Below, one piece after another: positions 1-9,241 of a stretch of DNA of 9,241 nucleotides (the first letter of the stretch is position 1; each line of letters begins with the position of its first letter). The stretch spans positions 1-9,241 of the forward strand of contig RFFQ01000122.1 of NCBI GenBank assembly GCA_003697105.1, given 5' to 3'. Both the position numbers and the translations under genes were made by a program. This DNA is from Gemmatimonadota bacterium. Lineage in GTDB: Bacteria; 4572-55; J002. The notes under the pieces were generated by a model that ran no database searches, was not told where the DNA came from, and worked only from the letters and a program-made list of their open reading frames with translations.

Positions 1-3000
1 CTCAAGCCGGAGGCATCATAAATTTGGCAGGTGATCTGAAAGGTCTCATCGTCAAAGGTGCTCGTCGGGGCAAAATTGGAGATCGTTGGCGGGGTAGAAT
101 CATCATCGCCGACATAGATAAGCAACGGGAGGGTCCAGATCGCTGACGCATCCCCCGCATGATCGGCATCGGCATCGCGGGCATAAATGCGGAAGATAAA
201 TTCCGTACCGGCGGGCAATGCGGGGAATTCGCTCTCCGATTGGTAGCGGTCACCACTCAGGAGCACCAACGGGGTTTCCGTAGCGTCTTCGGTCAGTTCG
301 CCGTCGGTATCCCAGCGGACGAACTGTTCGGCAAGCCCGCTGGCATCGGTGATGGTAGCAGAGACGTAAAACGGGTTATTATCCTCAATGCCTTCCGGGA
401 GAACATCCGTCACGACGGGCGCATCTGGGTCATCATCGTAAACAGTTACCGTCTGAATACCGGAAATCGTTTGCCGTTCGTCGCCCAGATGATCCATATC
501 GTTATCGGTGGCATAAATCCGGTAACGGATGACCGTCCCGCCCGGTTGTGCGGGAAGTACTGTTTGGGCGCGATAGTGGTTGTTACCCTGATGAATCAAG
601 GTGATTTGTTCGCCGTCATCGGGAGTCTCGTCGGTATCCCACACCAGATACGCTTCAGAAAGTCCGCTGGTATCTTCAATATCACACTCGATGGAGATGG
701 TCTCGTTATCCAGTACCTCGACCGGGGTAAAATTGGAAATAACCGGGGCATCGGGGTCATCATCGATCACGACAAATGAGATTCGTTCACTGACACCTCC
801 GGTACGGTCGGCGGGATTTTCCAGATCGAAATCGTTATCCCAGGCATAAATTTCATAGAGAATTTCCGTGCCGGCAGGCTGGCGGTTGATCTGTTCCACA
901 CTTTGGAAGCGAGACCCACTCAGGGGGTTCATCTGCTGGACTTCAAAATTATCATCATCAATATTTCCGTCGTTATCCCACTTGATCCAGACCCCTTGCC
1001 CGTTGGGTGGACCCGAATCATCATCAAATACACCGGACGAATCGATAATATCTGCCTCAAAATAAAAGTCTTCATCATCGTAGAGCGCTACCGGACTAAA
1101 ATTGACAAACTCCGGCGGCAGAACATCATCATCGGCAACGACAATCTCAACGGTCTGGCTGATTGCCAAACTGCGATCCCGTAAAAATTCGTTATCCTGA
1201 TCGTTATCCCAAGCGTAAATATTGTAGCTTAGTTCTGTCCCCACCGCTTGCTGGGGAATCGTGCTGACGGTAATCCAGGTATCCCCGTTGTAGGGTTCCA
1301 TGTAGATGGAATCGGAGACCGCATCCGTTTGCCAGTACAAAATGACGAGATCAATCCCGGACTCATCCGTAATGTCGGCATACATGAAAGTGGATTGGTT
1401 GTCGGTCATTTCATCCGTAAGGTTGGTAATGATAGGCGGCGTGTTGTCATCATCCAAAATGGTGATGGTTTGCTGGGCACTTTCGCCCGGTTGGCGGTCG
1501 GCGGGGTAGCCGTTATCAAAATCGTTATCGGCGGCACGTACCACGTAGCGGAAAAAGGTACCCACCAACTGCGAGTCAATGGCTTCAGCAGTTTGGTAGC
1601 GGTTATTTCCAAGCGGAATCATCGCCACTTCCACGTTCTCTTCAAAGCCATTGGACCAGACCAGCGTGACGGAATCGTCATAAATCCCGGATGTATCCGT
1701 GATCGTACATTCAATGGTGATGGTTTCGGCATCGGTGACGGCGGTTGGGGTAAAATCGGCAAATGTTGGCGGAGTTTGGTCATCATCGATTACTTCCAGC
1801 GGTTGGATGGCACTAACCGCCAGCGCTTTGTCACCTTCATCTTCGTTATCAAAATCGTTATCTTTGGCGTAAATCTGGTAAACAAAATCCACATCAAAGT
1901 GGTAGCTCCCAATGAGGTCGGTGGTGCGGAAGGTATCGCCGCTATCGCGAACCATTGGGGTGCGGAATTTGGTCAGTTCCAACTCGCCGTCAATATCCCA
2001 ATTGACATAGACACTGCTTTCATCAATCCCACTGGAGTCATCCACAATGGTTGCCGTGATCCAGAATGCCTCGTAATCCAGCACAGATTGTGGGGCAAAA
2101 TCACGGATTTCGGGTGGGGTGGCGTCATCATCGATAATTTCAATGGTGATGGTCTGGCTGGCAGATTGGGCGCGGTCACCGGGATAGGAATTATCAAAAT
2201 CATTATCATAGGCATAGACCCGGTAAACAAATGTCCCACTGGAGGGTTGCGGGGGCAAGGCGTCAATGGTGCGGTAGCGTCCTTGTGAACCGAGCACAAA
2301 CGCCATCTGGGTTTCATTGGCATCTTCGGTCAGTTCGCCGTCATTATCCCACCAGATATAAATCCCCTGTCCGTCCGAACCCGTGTCATTATCAAACACG
2401 TTACTGGGGTCAGTGATGGTACATTCGATGTAAAATTCAGCGGTATCATAAATGAGTTCGGGGGCAAAATCGCGGTATGTCGGTCCTTCGGCGTCATCAT
2501 CAACGATGGTCACGGTTTGCACCTCGCTAACCCCACTGAGCGCATCGCCTTCGTGGTCATCATCCACATCACTGGCATAGACCTGATAAACCAGATCGAC
2601 CGCTACCGTTTGCGGATTGATCGACTCTGCCGCTACCCACCGCCCATCGATGAAATTCATCGTCACGGGACCATTGGCATTCACGATCAGATCGCCGTCA
2701 TTATCCCAATAGAGGTAAACGGAGTTGCTGTCCAGCCCGGAATCATCGGAAATCTGGCAAGAGAGCGTAAAACCCTCATCATCAAAGGCTTCTACCGGCT
2801 GAAAATCAAATGCCAGCGGCGGGTCGGTGTCTTCATCTTCAAACGTGATCGACAACGTATCGGTGGTGGTGCTGAGTGCATCACCGGGACGATCGGTGTC
2901 GGCATCCGTAGTTGTAATGGAAAAGCGGAACGCAAAGCCGGCTTGACCGGGAATTTGGGGGGGAATTTGGCTGACGGTCTGGTATTCATCCCCGCCGATA

Positions 3001-4598
3001 TGCTCCAATGCCACTTCTGTTTCGGGATCAATGCCGTTTGTCCAAAAGAGAGACGCCGACGCCACCCCAGAGGCATCCTGAATCGTACAGGAGATGCTGA
3101 AGGGGGTGTCTTCAAGGGTGGTCGCCGGCAAAATATTGGTAATCACAGGCGCCTCGGTGTCATCATCCGTAAAAGTGATCGTCTCAGCGGTGCTGACCGT
3201 CGTCATACCATCGTCCGGTTGATCACGGTCGGCATCCGTTGCCCGTACCCGGTAAATAAAGAGTGAATCAAACAGGTCGGCGGTGATAAAAGCCGCGCTG
3301 GATTGGTACGTACCATTACCATTTTCATCACCGCTGATCCGCAACATCGGCATCGTTTGATAATCGCTATCCAATTCTCCGTCAGTATCCCATTCCAGCA
3401 GTACGAGCGTGGTATCGATCCCGCTGGTGGGGTCGCTGACATCCGCCGTAATGACAAAAGTGGGGCTGCTGTCCGAGACATTCGTTGGCGATAAGTTGGA
3501 GATGAGGGGTGCATCCGAGTCATCGTCAGCGAAATTGACAGCAGCCACCAGACTGATTCCAAAGGTCGCGTCCTCCGGGCGATCATTATCGGCATCCCAC
3601 GCCGTCCAGCGGAAAACAAAATTGGAGTCAAACACGTCTAGGGTATAAAATATTTCCGATTGGTACAATCCGGTGTACGTGGTGGTATCAGTGCCGGCAT
3701 ATGTGCCCGTGCCGACGTTGAAGTCCGTCTCAAGTTCGCCGTCGGTATCCCACAGAACCCGCACAGAATCGGGATTAATCCCGGATTCATCATTGATGTT
3801 GCCGGAAAGCACAAAACTGGGTACATCATCGGTGATCATTGATGGGGCAAGACCGGCAAAGGTGGGTTCACTTTCATCATCGTCACTGAACTGGATGGTG
3901 ACCGTGGCGCTCGTTGCGCGGAGTTCATCCCCCGGATGGTCGGCATCCTGATCATTGGCAGTGACGCGGTAGAGAAAATCCATGCCGTAAACCTCAGCGG
4001 TGGTGAAAACGCTATCACTCACATAGTGATTGTCACTTACTAACGACATGTTTACGGATTGAAACCCATTGTCCAGATCACCGTCCACATCCCATTCCAA
4101 CACGACCGACGCCGGATCAACCCCGCTGGTGGAATCCAAGACCGTTGCGGTAATTTCAAATGTCGTTTGATTATCGATCAGGGCGGTTGGCGCTAAATCG
4201 CCAATTACGGGGACATCTTGATCATCATCGGTGATCGTAATGGTGAAGAGTTCGCTGGCAGATTGCATCCGGTCATTGGGGTTGTTCCGGTCAAAATCGT
4301 TATCGTGGGCAAAAATTTGGCCGGTAATTAGGACTCCGGCAGGCATTGGCGGCAGCGCAACATCAACGCGATAGGCTTGCAAACTGTCTGACCAACTCAG
4401 TTGCACTTCGGTAGCATCGGTGACCAGTTCACCATCGGTATCCCACAACAGATATATCCCTTGCCCCTCTGAGCCGGTGCTATCATCATATACACCGGAG
4501 AGCGAATCGGCAATTTGCGCCGAGATCCCGATCGATTCGGAATCCAGCACCGTGGACGGTTGTATCCCGGAAATATTGGGACCGACGCCATCATCATC
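1..4598 (-). repeat. Tandem array of Ig-like protein modules (13 complete plus 1 partial)
   Basis: Asp-triplet linkers begin at residues 116, 239, 354, 473, 593, 702 (EDED variant), 815, 938, 1053, 1164, 1271, 1394, 1503 and 1613. This gives module lengths of 123, 115, 119, 120, 109, 113, 123, 115, 111, 107, 123, 109 and 110 residues, plus a partial module at the left edge. On the plus strand the linkers appear as recurring tcatcatc or gtcatcatc blocks every 321-369 bp. The modules are clearly homologous but diverged at DNA level, so this is an old array with some locally recent exchange. Modules 1, 7 and 11 form a long subclass of exactly 123 residues with a GQG-containing insertion. Modules 5 and 9 carry WTNG or WSNG in place of WDxDG. 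Confidence 0.9.
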
Positions 4599-4943
4599 CG
4601 CTGTGGCATAGACGGTATCGGTCGGTGTACTGGGGATGCTACTTCCAAAATCAATCGCGATGACGGAATAGCCGTAAGTTCCCAGTTGCAATACGGTTTC
4701 ATCGGTGTAGGTCAATGCGGCGGGGAAGATGGTAATTGCCGGAATACCATCCGTCCGGCGCACTTGAAAAAAGACATCATCCATCAGTTCGGCGGGGTAA
4801 TCCCACGCCAAGCTAATTGCAGAATCATTAACCGCCGTCACGCGCAACTGCGTCGGCGGTGCCGTCTGTGCCCCTGCGGTACCCCCGGCAACGGGCAACA
4901 GCCCTAATAACAACCCCAAACAGACCCATAATTTGCGGTTCAT
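1..4943 (-). CDS. Giant secreted multi-repeat Ig-like protein, N-terminal 1647 residues (3' end outside window)
   Basis: The protein is probably exported and acts at the cell surface or outside the cell as an adhesin or structural stalk; that role is inferred from architecture. The frame from ATG 4943 stays open to the left edge, and I checked it in phase at every repeat linker. Residues 1-25 form a signal peptide (MNRK, a Leu-rich core, then AGA before Gln26). Residues about 29-113 look like a fibronectin type III domain (PPTQLRVTAV, ISLAWDYP, YGYSVIAID). After that come modules of 107-123 residues. Each has a DxSG turn, a WDxDGEL strand-turn, a YR/YQ strand, an Asp-rich D-x-D-x-D loop near its end, and a DDD linker followed by PP or AP. 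A strong Shine-Dalgarno site supports this start. The gene has its own promoter. I cannot name a family for the modules; bacterial Ig-like or cadherin-like folds are the nearest guess. The C-terminal anchor or sorting domain is not visible. Confidence 0.93.
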   Translation of the reverse strand, partial: MNRKLWVCLGLLLGLLPVAGGTAGAQTAPPTQLRVTAVNDSAISLAWDYPAELMDDVFFQVRRTDGIPAITIFPAALTYTDETVLQLGTYGYSVIAIDFGSSIPSTPTDTVYATADDDGVGPNISGIQPSTVLDSESIGISAQIADSLSGVYDDSTGSEGQGIYLLWDTDGELVTDATEVQLSWSDSLQAYRVDVALPPMPAGVLITGQIFAHDNDFDRNNPNDRMQSASELFTITITDDDQDVPVIGDLAPTALIDNQTTFEITATVLDSTSGVDPASVVLEWDVDGDLDNGFQSVNMSLVSDNHYVSDSVFTTAEVYGMDFLYRVTANDQDADHPGDELRATSATVTIQFSDDDESEPTFAGLAPSMITDDVPSFVLSGNINDESGINPDSVRVLWDTDGELETDFNVGTGTYAGTDTTTYTGLYQSEIFYTLDVFDSNFVFRWTAWDADNDRPEDATFGISLVAAVNFADDDSDAPLISNLSPTNVSDSSPTFVITADVSDPTSGIDTTLVLLEWDTDGELDSDYQTMPMLRISGDENGNGTYQSSAAFITADLFDSLFIYRVRATDADRDQPDDGMTTVSTAETITFTDDDTEAPVITNILPATTLEDTPFSISCTIQDASGVASASLFWTNGIDPETEVALEHIGGDEYQTVSQIPPQIPGQAGFAFRFSITTTDADTDRPGDALSTTTDTLSITFEDEDTDPPLAFDFQPVEAFDDEGFTLSCQISDDSGLDSNSVYLYWDNDGDLIVNANGPVTMNFIDGRWVAAESINPQTVAVDLVYQVYASDVDDDHEGDALSGVSEVQTVTIVDDDAEGPTYRDFAPELIYDTAEFYIECTITDPSNVFDNDTGSDGQGIYIWWDNDGELTEDANETQMAFVLGSQGRYRTIDALPPQPSSGTFVYRVYAYDNDFDNSYPGDRAQSASQTITIEIIDDDATPPEIRDFAPQSVLDYEAFWITATIVDDSSGIDESSVYVNWDIDGELELTKFRTPMVRDSGDTFRTTDLIGSYHFDVDFVYQIYAKDNDFDNEDEGDKALAVSAIQPLEVIDDDQTPPTFADFTPTAVTDAETITIECTITDTSGIYDDSVTLVWSNGFEENVEVAMIPLGNNRYQTAEAIDSQLVGTFFRYVVRAADNDFDNGYPADRQPGESAQQTITILDDDNTPPIITNLTDEMTDNQSTFMYADITDESGIDLVILYWQTDAVSDSIYMEPYNGDTWITVSTIPQQAVGTELSYNIYAWDNDQDNEFLRDRSLAISQTVEIVVADDDVLPPEFVNFSPVALYDDEDFYFEADIIDSSGVFDDDSGPPNGQGVWIKWDNDGNIDDDNFEVQQMNPLSGSRFQSVEQINRQPAGTEILYEIYAWDNDFDLENPADRTGGVSERISFVVIDDDPDAPVISNFTPVEVLDNETISIECDIEDTSGLSEAYLVWDTDETPDDGEQITLIHQGNNHYRAQTVLPAQPGGTVIRYRIYATDNDMDHLGDERQTISGIQTVTVYDDDPDAPVVTDVLPEGIEDNNPFYVSATITDASGLAEQFVRWDTDGELTEDATETPLVLLSGDRYQSESEFPALPAGTEFIFRIYARDADADHAGDASAIWTLPLLIYVGDDDSTPPTISNFAPTSTFDDETFQITCQIYDASGL

Positions 4944-4950
4944 TATCGCA

Positions 4951-4957
4951 CCCCTCT
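4951..4957 (-). promoter_or_regulatory. Shine-Dalgarno site of the giant repeat gene
   Basis: On the minus strand AGAGGGG lies 7 nt before ATG 4943. It is a purine-rich site at normal spacing and it fixes the start codon of the repeat protein, directly in front of a clear signal peptide. Confidence 0.75.
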
Positions 4958-5001
4958 GGATAAATGAACGTTATATCATATTGATTTTACTACCATTTAA
5001 T

Positions 5002-5022
5002 CAAATGACTTGAAGTGATTTG
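5002..5022. promoter_or_regulatory. 21-bp near-perfect inverted repeat, candidate operator or 5' UTR hairpin
   Basis: The plus-strand arms are caaatgactt and aagtgatttg around a central g at 5012. Nine of ten arm positions pair; the one mismatch is at 5007/5017. The repeat starts about 7 nt inside the transcript predicted from the promoter at 5036-5064. It could bind a dimeric repressor or fold as a hairpin at the mRNA 5' end. No T-run follows it on the minus strand, so it does not look like an intrinsic terminator. Confidence 0.55.
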
Positions 5023-5035
5023 TTAAGTAAACTCG

Positions 5036-5064
5036 ATCATACTCGATTTAGACCCCTTTGTCAA
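5036..5064 (-). promoter_or_regulatory. Sigma-70-type promoter of the giant repeat gene
   Basis: On the minus strand the -35 box is TTGACA (5059-5064, perfect consensus), the spacer is exactly 17 bp (5042-5058), and the -10 box is TATGAT (5036-5041, five of six). Transcription should start near 5029 and leave an untranslated leader of about 86 nt before ATG 4943. The heptamer ATCGAGT occurs twice around the -10 box (5041-5047 and 5031-5037 on the plus strand as actcgat), ten bases apart from start to start. This could be a site for a regulator. Confidence 0.8.
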
Positions 5065-5081
5065 CAAAAATTTTGGGAAGG

Positions 5082-5118
5082 CAAAAACAAACCCCTGATA
5101 CCATCAGGCATCAGGGGT
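5082..5118 (-). terminator. Rho-independent terminator of the four-gene operon
   Basis: A perfect 9-bp inverted repeat, ACCCCTGAT (5091-5099) and ATCAGGGGT (5110-5118), encloses a 10-nt loop. Read on the minus strand, the stem is followed at once by TTGTTTTTG (5090-5082). The plus-strand side has no T-run, so it ends leftward transcription. It lies about 175 nt beyond the thioesterase stop codon and just upstream of the -35 box of the repeat gene, and so insulates the two units. Confidence 0.85.
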
Positions 5119-5293
5119 AACCCGACCTGCCGCACCCCCGATGTGCTGAATAGACATTTTTATAGCGAGATTCAAGGCGGTCAAGAGTAGGTGGGTCTGT
5201 TTTACCGGTGTAAGGGGTCGCCATTACAATGGCTAAAAACAGGGATGCGGAAAGGCAGGTAACGGTTTAGGGAAAAACATGCCGCGTGGGGCA
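5119..5293. other. Operon 3' untranslated stretch, no gene seen
   Basis: This stretch lies between the thioesterase stop codon and the terminator. I find no convincing reading frame on either strand; the longest ATG-led plus-strand frame I noticed (from 5230) is only 13 codons. A small palindrome, ccatt-ac-aatgg, sits at 5221-5232. With the leader region of the repeat gene (4944-5081) this completes the 350-bp gene-free gap, which otherwise holds the terminator, the promoter, the inverted repeat and the ribosome-binding site listed separately. Confidence 0.6.
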
Positions 5294-5791
5294 TTAGCGT
5301 GAGGAGTTTTCGTATTGTTTTTCGCGAGAACGGCGATCTAGGGCGGCTTGGCGGATGTGTTCAGCGGTCTTCCAATCTTGCTGTTCTTGAGGCGTGGTGA
5401 CCCGAAGTGGGGGAACCGGTTGGGGTTTACCTTTCGTATCAATAGCGACCATGGTGACAAAGGAGGTGCAACAGTGGGTTCGTTCGCCGTTGTTGGGATT
5501 TTCACTCCAAACGATCACTTTGATCATCATGGAGGAGCGCCCCACGTAAATGGTCTTTGCGCAGATGTGGACGAGGAAGTTGGCTTTGATGGGGGTATGA
5601 AAATCAATGGCTTCTACCGATGCCGTCACGACGTGTTCATGACAGTAACGGATGGCACACATGGCGGCAGCTTTATCGATCATCTCCATTAGTTTGCCTC
5701 CAAACAAAGCGTTATAGCGATTGGTATAAGCCGGTAGTACCAAGTCATTCATTTCGACGGTGATGGGAGGCTGCGGGGGTCGGTTTGGCAT
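5294..5791 (-). CDS. Hotdog-fold acyl-CoA thioesterase, YciA/BACH type (165 aa)
   Basis: It is predicted to hydrolyse acyl-CoA to free acid and CoA in the cytosol. The family signature is clear: Asn24, then FGGKLMEMIDKAA (residues 30-42) on the hotdog helix, with Asp39 at the position expected for the catalytic Asp of YciA-type enzymes. VVTASVEAIDFHTPIKA (54-70), VGRSSMMIKVIVW and FVTMVAIDTKGKPQPVP follow in family order. The length suits a single-domain bacterial enzyme. The tail after about residue 130 is charged and helical. AAGGA overlaps the upstream stop codon and supports ATG 5791, with a gap of 9 nt after the phosphatase. It is the last gene of the operon, ahead of the terminator. Chain-length preference cannot be read from the sequence, and its link to the signalling genes is unclear; it may be a passenger or may act in membrane-lipid turnover. 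Confidence 0.9.
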   Translation of the reverse strand: MPNRPPQPPITVEMNDLVLPAYTNRYNALFGGKLMEMIDKAAAMCAIRYCHEHVVTASVEAIDFHTPIKANFLVHICAKTIYVGRSSMMIKVIVWSENPNNGERTHCCTSFVTMVAIDTKGKPQPVPPLRVTTPQEQQDWKTAEHIRQAALDRRSREKQYENSSR

Positions 5792-5800
5792 TACATTCCT

Positions 5801-6967
5801 TTACAATTTACGGATAATGGAAATGGTCATATCATCTTTTTGGGGTGTGGTACCGCAAAATTGGCTGAGGGTTTCAAACACCTCATTGATAATTTCAGAG
5901 GCGGGCAGGTGATAATGTTTTTTGAGCAAGCGCTCGAAGCGTTCAAAGCCGAACAAATCGGTTTTGGCATTCATGGCATTAACAATGCCGCTGTTATAGA
6001 GGATCAACGTTTCGCCCGCTTGAAATTGATGTTCATGGCAGTGAAAAGTCAAATCCGATTGGACACCCATCGGCAGCGAAGTGGCGGCGAGCTGGTCAAT
6101 TTGTACAGAGCCATTCACACCCCGCACGGTATAGGGGAAGGGATGCCCGGCACTGGCATAGTGCATCACTCCCGTTGCGGTATTGAGCATGGCATAAAAC
6201 AGGGTGACAAATGTTTTTTCCGTCCAGGCGGTGCATAAAATCCGGTTGATGGTTTGGAGGACGATTTCCGGCGGGGATTGCTGGGGTATTTGGGCATAAA
6301 TACCGCTTTTTACCATCGCCATCAACAAGGCGGCAGGCAACCCTTTACCGCTCACATCCGCGATAACGGCGTTCAACTCCCGGTCGTTGCGGGGGATAAA
6401 ATCGAAGTAATCGCCCCCAATTTCTTCCGCGGCGATACTGGCGCCGTAAATATCCCAACCCTCAATTTCGGGGAAGGCGGGGGGGAGCAAGGAGACTTGC
6501 ACCATTCGCCCTCGATCCATTTCCTCCGTCAGCAACAGAGAGGTGGTCTGGAGTTCAACGGTTCGGAGTTCCAACTCCATGGTTTGTTCAAGGATACGAC
6601 TTTCCAGATCGGCATTCAGTTTTTCGAGTTGTTTACGGGATTGAAGCAAGTTCTGCCGCATCCGGTCCAGGTGAAGGGCAAGTTGCCCGAATTCATCCTG
6701 CCGGTTAATCGTGATCGGCTGTTTGAGGTCACCGGCGGAAATCGACTGAATATCACTGACGATATGTTTCAGGGGCTGAATGACCATGTTTGCCATCATG
6801 ATGGCAGCCGCTATCGTGATAAGTGAGGCAAAAAATGCCACACCGATAATGCCCCGGACGAGTGGGGCGGTTAAATCTCCATATATCCAAATGAGGCTAA
6901 ATATCACCACGATGGTAAATAGGGTGACGCAGAGCGAGAGCAGAATAAACCGGCTGCGGATACTCAT
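5801..6967 (-). CDS. Membrane HAMP-coiled coil-SpoIIE/PP2C-type Ser/Thr phosphatase (388 aa), degenerate metal motif
   Basis: This is an RsbU/SpoIIE-like protein. Relatives dephosphorylate anti-anti-sigma (STAS) proteins in partner-switching pathways; no STAS or anti-sigma kinase gene is in the window. TM helices span about 7-28 and 38-61 with only about nine residues between them, so there is no extracellular sensor domain. HAMP follows (IQPLKHIVSDIQ, SAGDL, DEFGQLALHLDRM, about 62-110), then a coiled coil (about 105-152). The phosphatase domain (about 155-388) has SLLP, AAEEIGGDYFDF (179-190), VIADVSGKGLPAALL (201-215), YASAGHPFP (270-278) and DDMT (378-381). The usual YTDG motif reads YNSG (324-327), so Ser326 replaces a normally conserved metal-binding Asp. 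I chose ATG 6967 because it forms an ATGA overlap with the TPR gene's stop and directly precedes TM1; an in-frame ATG at 7042 would add 25 polar residues inside the upstream gene. Confidence 0.88.
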   Translation of the reverse strand: MSIRSRFILLSLCVTLFTIVVIFSLIWIYGDLTAPLVRGIIGVAFFASLITIAAAIMMANMVIQPLKHIVSDIQSISAGDLKQPITINRQDEFGQLALHLDRMRQNLLQSRKQLEKLNADLESRILEQTMELELRTVELQTTSLLLTEEMDRGRMVQVSLLPPAFPEIEGWDIYGASIAAEEIGGDYFDFIPRNDRELNAVIADVSGKGLPAALLMAMVKSGIYAQIPQQSPPEIVLQTINRILCTAWTEKTFVTLFYAMLNTATGVMHYASAGHPFPYTVRGVNGSVQIDQLAATSLPMGVQSDLTFHCHEHQFQAGETLILYNSGIVNAMNAKTDLFGFERFERLLKKHYHLPASEIINEVFETLSQFCGTTPQKDDMTISIIRKL

Positions 6968-8172
6968 AATGTGTCCGATCTCAACTGAAGGAGAGATTGT
7001 AATTTCAGACTTTGGGGAGCCATGGCTTTGATCTCTTCGCAAGCTTTAGACCATTCATTAATGTGATGTAAATGATAGTGCGCCAGACCCAACATGTAGA
7101 AGACATCTACCCGCAATTGGCGATGCTCTGCCGGGATACGGTGGAGGGCGTTGTTGAGGTGGGAAACAGCCGCCGGATAACGTCCTTCCTGAAGTGCGAT
7201 GAACGCCTGACCCAATGCCACATAACACAACTGGTGGTCTGCCAGATGCGGTTTAAGGGCTTCTAGCTGAGCGCTCCCCTCCGGTAGCGGTTGGTTTTGC
7301 TGCCATGCCAATCGTAATCGGCCCAATAATACCAGTAGAGCATAATTTGGGCGGGACATCGGGAATTCAAGGGCATCGGCTCGATCTAAACAGGATTGAG
7401 CTAAATCAAATTGCCCGGTGTGCGTGTAGGCATACGCTAAGGTTATCAAGGCGACAAAACGCAAATCAACCGGCGTTAATAGCGCCGCCGCCTGTTCGCC
7501 ATACGAAATGGCACGGTCGTATTGCTCGCATTGGGTATATAAATAGGCGCGAGCATACGTGGTTGTTGCCGCAAATTCTGGGGTAGATTCCAAACGGCTC
7601 AATGCCGCCAGTTCCGCTTCACCGCGTGACAAATCGATTAACATCCCATACGCCATCACCCGTTGGTTGTGCAGTTGATATGCCATTTGAGAGGATTGCG
7701 GCGTCTGTTTTGCCGCCAGATCGCATGCTTGCAGAATTTTCAGTGGCTGTTGTAACGTGAGATAAACACTGGCTTGGATCAAATAGGTTTGCGTGTGGTC
7801 TATGTTCGGACTGATGTTTAAGGCGGTTTCGCACCACTTCAATGCGTCATGGGGTCGTTCTAGAAACATGTGTAAATGGGCGGCTTGTATGGCGGCATTG
7901 GCTCTGAAGGCATCGTTTAAGCCCCAGCGGCTGGCTTTTTCAAACTGGGTCAACGCCGATTCGTACTGCTTGAGGTGAACTCGCCACAAGCCGGAAACAT
8001 AATACCGCACCATAAAGCTGACCCAGCCAAAAAAGACGATCAATCCATAAGCGATAAGTTGCCCATTGCTCCAATGAAACCAGATGGGGATAGCAATCAC
8101 TACCGCCAAACCCAGCGTGTAAAGTAAAATTTCCTTGAGGATGTGGAGGAAGGATGTGTTTTCTTCCGGCAT
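6964..8172 (-). CDS. Membrane-anchored TPR-repeat protein (402 aa)
   Basis: Two hydrophobic helices (about 14-34 and 38-60) are followed by a long, probably cytosolic, solenoid of eight or nine TPR-like helix pairs from about residue 62 to the end. Examples are LKQYESALTQFEKA, ERPHDALKWCETALNISP, CEQYDRAISYGEQAAALL, TGQFDLAQSCLDRADAL and EGRYPAAVSHLNNALHRIP. TPR solenoids bind partner proteins; no catalytic motif is visible. Its stop overlaps the phosphatase start (ATGA), so the two are probably translationally coupled and made in similar amounts, which fits a scaffold or input partner (inference). ATG 8172 is preferred: it lies 8 nt after the previous stop, with GAGAAG a few bases upstream. 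TTG at 8187 or 8184 would extend the protein by four or five residues and overlap the upstream gene. Confidence 0.85.
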   Translation of the reverse strand: MPEENTSFLHILKEILLYTLGLAVVIAIPIWFHWSNGQLIAYGLIVFFGWVSFMVRYYVSGLWRVHLKQYESALTQFEKASRWGLNDAFRANAAIQAAHLHMFLERPHDALKWCETALNISPNIDHTQTYLIQASVYLTLQQPLKILQACDLAAKQTPQSSQMAYQLHNQRVMAYGMLIDLSRGEAELAALSRLESTPEFAATTTYARAYLYTQCEQYDRAISYGEQAAALLTPVDLRFVALITLAYAYTHTGQFDLAQSCLDRADALEFPMSRPNYALLVLLGRLRLAWQQNQPLPEGSAQLEALKPHLADHQLCYVALGQAFIALQEGRYPAAVSHLNNALHRIPAEHRQLRVDVFYMLGLAHYHLHHINEWSKACEEIKAMAPQSLKLQSLLQLRSDTL

Positions 8173-8180
8173 AGGGCTTC

Positions 8181-8897
8181 TCAACAACCGCCACGGGCGT
8201 GATATGTGGAGCGGGAATGATGACGGCGTCGTTCTCGTTCTTTTGAGAGCAATTCGTGCTGAAAATGGGTGCCGCTTTCCGCTAAAGCCTGCATGGAGAG
8301 TACCCGGATTTTGGCGCCGATAAGTTCCAGTTCCTTACCGATACCGTGGGCGGTCTCTTCTGTCAAATCGGTTGCCAACAGGGAAGGTGTCCGAAGGAGC
8401 AATTTTGCTTGTGTTTCGTCGCATTCACGCACAATCTGAATGCCTTCGAGTACCTCGTCTTCGTAGCCGGGGGTCACGTCTTCTAAAATCAAGGCAAATC
8501 GATTGGGATCGGGTCGGAACAAGGGTTTTGAGGTGCGCCGGGGATGACGGCGCGGGGAAATTGGCGGTATCGGGGGTACTGGGGGGATGGCACCTGTGGG
8601 TGGCTTCGGGGGAACTTCCGGTGGTGTGTCATCCACATCAAGGTGGAATTTTACCTGCTGAAAAGGAGGTTCCAAAGTGGGAGATTCTCGCCCTTCTAAT
8701 CGTTCACGGACGGTGTATTTATAGATCAGGGCGACGATGGCAGGAATCCAGACCTGCCCAAACCACGGAATTACCATCCCCAAAATCCAGAAGACTTTGG
8801 GGGGTAACTCCTTTTTGGAGCGCTTCGTGACATCAATTAATTGCTGTAACCAAACAAAGAACAGCCAAATGCCAATCACAAAAGTGATAAATTGCAT
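8181..8897 (-). CDS. Two-TM membrane protein with proline-rich linker and L7/L12 C-terminal-like domain (238 aa)
   Basis: Residues 3-21 and 36-60 are membrane helices. With the short basic loop between them they resemble the PLDc_N-type two-helix module found at the N-terminus of cardiolipin synthases and in many small membrane proteins. Residues 90-115 are rich in proline (PPEVPPKPP, IPPVPPIPPISP) and residues 116-130 are basic. Residues about 133-201 follow the pattern of the ribosomal L7/L12 C-terminal domain: FALILEDV, a helix with EVLEGIQIVRE, ETQAKLLLRTPSLL in place of LGLKEAKDLVE..P, then EETAHGIGKELELIGAKIRVL. The tail (218-238) is strongly basic and ends in Gly-Gly-Cys. The L7/L12 likeness is by eye and suggests a protein-docking module, not a ribosomal role. 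It is the first gene of the operon; its Shine-Dalgarno (GGA, 8 nt before ATG) is weak. Confidence 0.8.
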   Translation of the reverse strand: MQFITFVIGIWLFFVWLQQLIDVTKRSKKELPPKVFWILGMVIPWFGQVWIPAIVALIYKYTVRERLEGRESPTLEPPFQQVKFHLDVDDTPPEVPPKPPTGAIPPVPPIPPISPRRHPRRTSKPLFRPDPNRFALILEDVTPGYEDEVLEGIQIVRECDETQAKLLLRTPSLLATDLTEETAHGIGKELELIGAKIRVLSMQALAESGTHFQHELLSKERERRRHHSRSTYHARGGC

Positions 8898-8953
8898 GTT
8901 TTATTCCGCTGGAGATAGGTGGGGGCACATCGCGACGTACCGAGTAGCTTCAA

Positions 8954-8982
8954 AATGTAACCGGATTTACAACGGTTGTCAA
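8954..8982 (-). promoter_or_regulatory. Sigma-70-type promoter of the four-gene operon
   Basis: On the minus strand the -35 box is TTGACA (8977-8982, perfect), the spacer is 17 bp (8960-8976) and the -10 box is TACATT (8954-8959, four of six). Transcription should begin near 8947, leaving a leader of about 50 nt before ATG 8897. An ACAAC-C-GTTGT inverted repeat (8969-8979) covers the inner part of the -35 box and could be an operator. The rest of the 223-bp spacer (8898-9120) is AT-rich with several A- and T-tracts and no reading frame I trust. Confidence 0.75.
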
Positions 8983-9120
8983 CCCCAAGTAAAAAACGTC
9001 TTGAATATTTTTTGAGATGTTGTAGTTTAAACACCGATTTTCTCTCCCATAACCATAGTACACGACAAAACTTGAAAAAAAGTCAACTTTCTTCTACTTT
9101 CTCTGAAAACTCTGGAAAAC

Positions 9121-9241
9121 TCATGTTTTAAAATTGATAAAAGCGTTCATTTTCTCAAAGGCATGGTCGTCGATGTTATTTTGGATGCGGAATCGTTGCA
9201 CGGCGTTGGTGATGAGCAACTTTTGCCGCCCCATGAGAAAG
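9121..9241 (-). CDS. C-terminal 39 residues of an unrecognised protein (5' end outside window)
   Basis: The frame enters from the right edge and stops with TGA at 9121-9123. The visible tail contains MGRQKLLITNAVQRFRIQ and ends DDHAFEKMNAFINFKT. Third codon positions are mostly G or C until the last few codons, as expected for a real gene here, while the sequence after the stop turns sharply AT-rich. It points the same way as all other genes. I do not recognise the family. No clear terminator follows; instead there is a short tandem repeat, CTCTGAAAA-CTCTGGAAAA, at 9101-9119 on the plus strand. A plus-strand frame from ATG 9163 is open to the edge and is the alternative reading. Confidence 0.55.
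   Translation of the reverse strand, partial: FLMGRQKLLITNAVQRFRIQNNIDDHAFEKMNAFINFKT

Follow-up and report, generated by a model that had tools for sequence, protein, structure and literature searches.

A candidate pseudophosphatase of the SpoIIE/RsbU family with an altered M1/M3 metal wall in a Gemmatimonadota bacterium

The minus strand of a 9,241-nucleotide stretch of Gemmatimonadota DNA (contig RFFQ01000122.1, positions 1 to 9,241; hereafter the window) encodes a 388-aa protein that we regard as a candidate pseudophosphatase, or a severely crippled enzyme, which would still fold and bind a partner. The reading that we favour, and consider likely, is that of a SpoIIE/RsbU (PPM/PP2C) family protein, anchored in the membrane and coupled to a HAMP domain, in which the M1/M3 wall has been dismantled, the M2 side and the fold have been kept, and action is by binding.

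Residues 326 and 330 of the SpoIIE/PP2C-like domain

The gene starts with an ATG at 6967-6965, which overlaps the TGA stop of the upstream TPR gene in the sequence ATGA, and its reading ends at 5801. The protein comprises two hydrophobic transmembrane helices a few residues apart, followed by a HAMP domain, a long coiled coil and a SpoIIE/PP2C domain (Table 1). An earlier sequence-only reading had reported that the motif normally carrying a metal-ligand Asp is altered, and re-reading of the minus strand confirmed its residue numbers, codon and coordinates for Ser326 and Asn330, the motif being Y324-N325-S326-G327-I328-V329-N330. The motifs that it had described as intact, GGDYFD (184-189), DVSGKG (204-209), AGHP (273-276) and DDMT (378-381), were all found in place.

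Table 1. Features of the 388-aa protein gene and its surroundings in the window
Feature	Position	Strand	Remarks
238-aa protein	8181..8897	-	Hydrophobic N-terminus, no Pfam/NCBIfam match; opens the apparent operon
TPR-repeat protein	6964..8187	-	N-terminal hydrophobic segments; upstream, overlaps start of the phosphatase-like gene
SpoIIE/PP2C-like protein, 388 aa	5801..6967	-	TM-TM-HAMP-coiled coil-SpoIIE/PP2C
HAMP domain (PF00672)	6644..6796	-	
Asp186 of GGD	6410..6412	-	M2-side residue, intact
SpoIIE domain (PF07228)	5810..6385	-	154.7 bits; 152.6 bits against the curated cut-off of 25, assigned to the family
Asp204 of DVSG	6356..6358	-	Ligand common to M1 and M2 (SpoIIE D628), intact
Ser326, codon AGC	5990..5992	-	Replaces M1/M3-ligand Asp (SpoIIE D746, SiaA D600)
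Asn330, codon AAT	5978..5980	-	Replaces near-invariant Glu/Asp (SiaA D604, M3 support)
Asp378 of DDMT	5834..5836	-	M1 ligand (SpoIIE D795), intact
Hot-dog acyl-CoA thioesterase (4HBT, YciA-like)	5294..5791	-	Last gene of the apparent operon
Sigma-70-like promoter TTGACA-17-TACATT	8954..8982	-	Before the first gene; consensus match only
Terminator-like hairpin, 12 pairs	5091..5118	-	After the thioesterase gene; consensus match only
Terminator-like hairpin	5279..5294	-	Consensus match only

Alignment to solved structures placed Ser326 at the Asp of SDG in RssB and SpoIIE (D746) and of TDG in Rv1364c and SiaA (D600), and Asn330, counted along the printed alignment, at SiaA D604. In SpoIIE, the ligands of Mn1 are D746, D628 and D795, and in other bacterial enzymes the residue corresponding to D746 forms a bridge between Mn1 and Mn3 (PMC3517971; PMC5468089); in SiaA, D600 coordinates M3 and D604 supports the M3 water shell (PMC7647112). 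The alignments and the published ligand maps thus concur with the earlier assignment of Ser326 to a metal-ligand position and, since Asn330 maps to D604, both changes fall in the M1/M3 wall. From the complete set of M1/M2 ligand aspartates (GGD, DVSG, TDG, DD) only that of TDG is replaced, and the protein combines a PPM fold with the absence of a catalytic metal ligand, as expected of a PPM pseudophosphatase. The sequence-only reading had named another Asp in the ligand position, such as Asp337, among the things that would overturn its interpretation. Asp337 falls on the acidic residue that the E/D-x-F-G motif normally carries. Of 128 relatives, 68 have Glu and 14 have Asp there, almost all of them alongside the TDG Asp, and therefore no obvious replacement for the ligand was found.

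An AlphaFold2 model (mean pLDDT 70) adopted the alpha-beta-beta-alpha fold of PP2C and matched the phosphatase domains of RssB, SpoIIE, SiaA and RsbX, with E values of about 1e-12 to 1e-14. The alignment of related loci available for the prediction had two rows. With a pLDDT below 50 at residues 327-338 and 373-378, the model is unreliable around the active-site loop.

Conservation among relatives

SpoIIE domains from the same genome and from many others were aligned; as most had been gathered by similarity to the 388-aa protein, they do not represent a random draw from the family. Despite this manner of sampling, a residue other than Asp at the Ser326 position is clearly rare as judged from the alignments. 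In the first set, Asp occupied this position in 127/128 domains, and Glu or Asp the Asn330 position in 124/128. After enlargement to 154 domains, Asp was present in 151, two fragments ended before the site and one domain carried Pro. This last domain, L128, comes from the sole other genome of the same phylum in the comparison (G001; the genome under study is G000) and has also lost the Asp residues of GGD and DVSG. The remaining SpoIIE domains found in G000 all keep the TDG Asp. A common origin of the 388-aa protein with the degenerate L128 was considered and found no support in the tree, where L128 groups with L013 (0.93) and the 388-aa protein lies beside L017 without support.

Both genomes of the phylum share a tandem pair of membrane HAMP/SpoIIE-like genes in which the more divergent member comes first (G001, L143:9129-11522 and L143:11652-14201, plus strand; G000, L194:7361-9709 and L194:5059-7359, minus strand). 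The first members, L128 and L013, group together in the tree (0.93), as do the second members, L058 and L006 (0.98). The first member in G001 has lost the GGD, DVSG and TDG aspartates; that in G000 keeps them, carries VTARG and has lost the Glu of TDGxxE.

Measured against the 16 columns conserved at 90% or more among the 128 relatives, the 388-aa protein deviates at 326 and 330 only. At the 27 columns conserved at 80% or more it deviates at 6, the relatives having a median of 2 and a 75th percentile of 3. Against a profile from which it had been excluded, it scored 252 bits. Because of this score and of the restriction of deviations to 326 and 330 among the 16 columns, general decay is disfavoured, and the sequence comparison describes a protein that is somewhat divergent, not degraded. 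We also searched for orthologues sharing YNSG, a check that the sequence-only reading had proposed, and found none in 60 and then 386 genomes (two of them from this phylum) and no near relative among the genome contigs, the best match reaching 37% over the domain.

Proposed mode of action and alternative explanations

We take Asp239 of PPM1A to be the equivalent of the TDG Asp, as established knowledge of the family. PPM1A D239N serves as a phosphatase-dead allele (PMC7978383), and the PPM pseudophosphatases TAB1 and PHLPP2 hold a single metal in M2 and have no M1 (PMC12002173). Because this allele is used as a dead one and natural pseudophosphatases lose M1 and keep M2, the comparison favours, among the options raised by the sequence-only reading, a pseudophosphatase or a very weak enzyme. 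The exchange of Asp for Ser at 326 and of Glu for Asn at 330 would dismantle the M1/M3 wall, leaving M1, and M3 as well, unbound or weakly bound. The metal-bridged nucleophilic water would then not form, and turnover would be lost or greatly reduced. Signalling through the HAMP domain and coiled coil may change the conformation of the dimeric SpoIIE domain, and the altered domain could capture, release or shield a partner. The simplest candidates for this partner are a phosphorylated STAS protein from another locus of the genome and the TPR protein of the neighbouring gene. As Asp186, Asp204 and Asp378 are kept, some metal binding may remain, and weak or water-mediated coordination by Ser or Asn is conceivable.

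This residual capacity is the basis of a rather unlikely alternative, a weak but physiologically active phosphatase in which M1 is poorly held by D204 and D378 with the help of water or Ser326, and slow turnover returns at a high metal level or on partner docking. The three conserved aspartates, the integrity of all other motifs and the fact that PPM activity can be tuned through metal recruitment (PMC5468089) speak for such an enzyme, but in bacterial enzymes the Asp at this position serves as ligand to both M1 and M3, the D239N form of PPM1A is regarded as dead, and a second residue of the M3 shell, N330, has changed as well. It is less probable still that the gene is a decaying, functionless copy whose Asp was lost recently and whose remainder has yet to drift. 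As no orthologue was found among the 386 genomes, function may have been lost recently in a single lineage, and the branch of the 388-aa protein measures 1.18, somewhat above the median of 0.78. However, the frame is open, the start overlaps the preceding gene in a compact gene order, agreement at the other most conserved columns is near perfect, and two functionally linked sites have been altered by several base substitutions with their neighbours kept.

The same substitutions make an assembly or sequencing artefact highly improbable, although the sequence comes from a single short contig (9241 bases) in an assembly of 199 contigs. They are separate and in frame, with no signature of a frameshift. 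The motif lies at least 5 base changes away from T-D-G-x-x-E, so a single sequencing error is insufficient to explain it. A masked frameshift was also considered and rejected, since neither of the other two frames at the motif contains or restores TDG.

A more specific form of the pseudophosphatase reading, which we propose only tentatively, is a HAMP-switched membrane pseudophosphatase that binds metal in M2 only and provides a signal-gated binding platform for the co-encoded TPR protein or a STAS partner. PP2C metal ligands would then have been lost independently at least twice in a little-sampled phylum, the other case being L128 of G001, which adjoins an intact phosphatase.

Genomic setting and related systems

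Gene overlaps and short gaps suggest that four minus-strand genes, encoding the 238-aa protein, the TPR protein, the phosphatase-like protein in third place and the thioesterase, form one apparent operon. Promoter-like sites in the region numbered 10 vs 5.5 in shuffled sequences, above expectation, and terminator-like sites 6 vs 5.1, as by chance. The TPR gene was not found in G001 or G002 and had only a weak match in G059; around related SpoIIE loci none of the neighbouring genes matched. No STAS or RsbW-like/kinase gene adjoins the phosphatase-like gene. The genome gave 24 STAS matches and 13 SpoIIE matches besides this protein, together with several ATPase domains of the RsbW-like type, and possible partners therefore exist. 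On contig 22 of G000 (L014:204-1992, plus strand), a compact cluster encodes a STAS protein, a pair of RsbW-like ATPases and a short phosphatase of SpoIIE/RsbX-like type in which SDG is intact, with an HD-like protein after them; it is a possible partner-switching module. Elsewhere in the window, positions 3-4943 (minus strand) hold the first part of a very large protein of secreted appearance (more than 1647 aa, running off the contig) with acidic repeats of about 110 residues and its own promoter-like site at 5064-5036 (11/12 matches).

Among known systems, SiaA of Pseudomonas aeruginosa (6K4E), whose structure has M1-M3 mapped, shares with the 388-aa protein the order of a HAMP and then a PP2C domain and is its best NCBIfam relative, but has D600 and D604 intact and a larger N-terminal region; with 83 bits against a cut-off of 700, the 388-aa protein lies outside the SiaA equivalog NF038263. 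It resembles SpoIIE/RsbU of Bacillus subtilis in its PF07228 domain and in the other mapped Asp ligands, and differs in the change of SpoIIE D746 to Ser and in a HAMP domain in place of the SpoIIE/RsbU regulatory regions. TAB1 and PHLPP2 likewise have M1 lost and M2 kept and are devoid of phosphatase activity, but are eukaryotic, distant in sequence and set in another domain context. CT589, a paralogue of RsbU in Chlamydia trachomatis, is SpoIIE/PP2C-like, spans the membrane and has been described as devoid of residues that metal coordination requires (PMC4552016); it is likened here by that description, and unlike the 388-aa protein it is predicted to carry a periplasmic domain.

With TAB1, PHLPP2 and chlamydial CT589 as precedents, dead relatives of this type are already known. 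The SpoIIE/RsbU family is very common in bacteria, and its catalytically dead members have been little studied. A Pfam score alone is insufficient to annotate the 388-aa protein as an active phosphatase. With the loss confined to the M1/M3 wall of an otherwise canonical domain, the protein would offer a clean natural test of whether HAMP-driven PP2C switching can signal without turnover.
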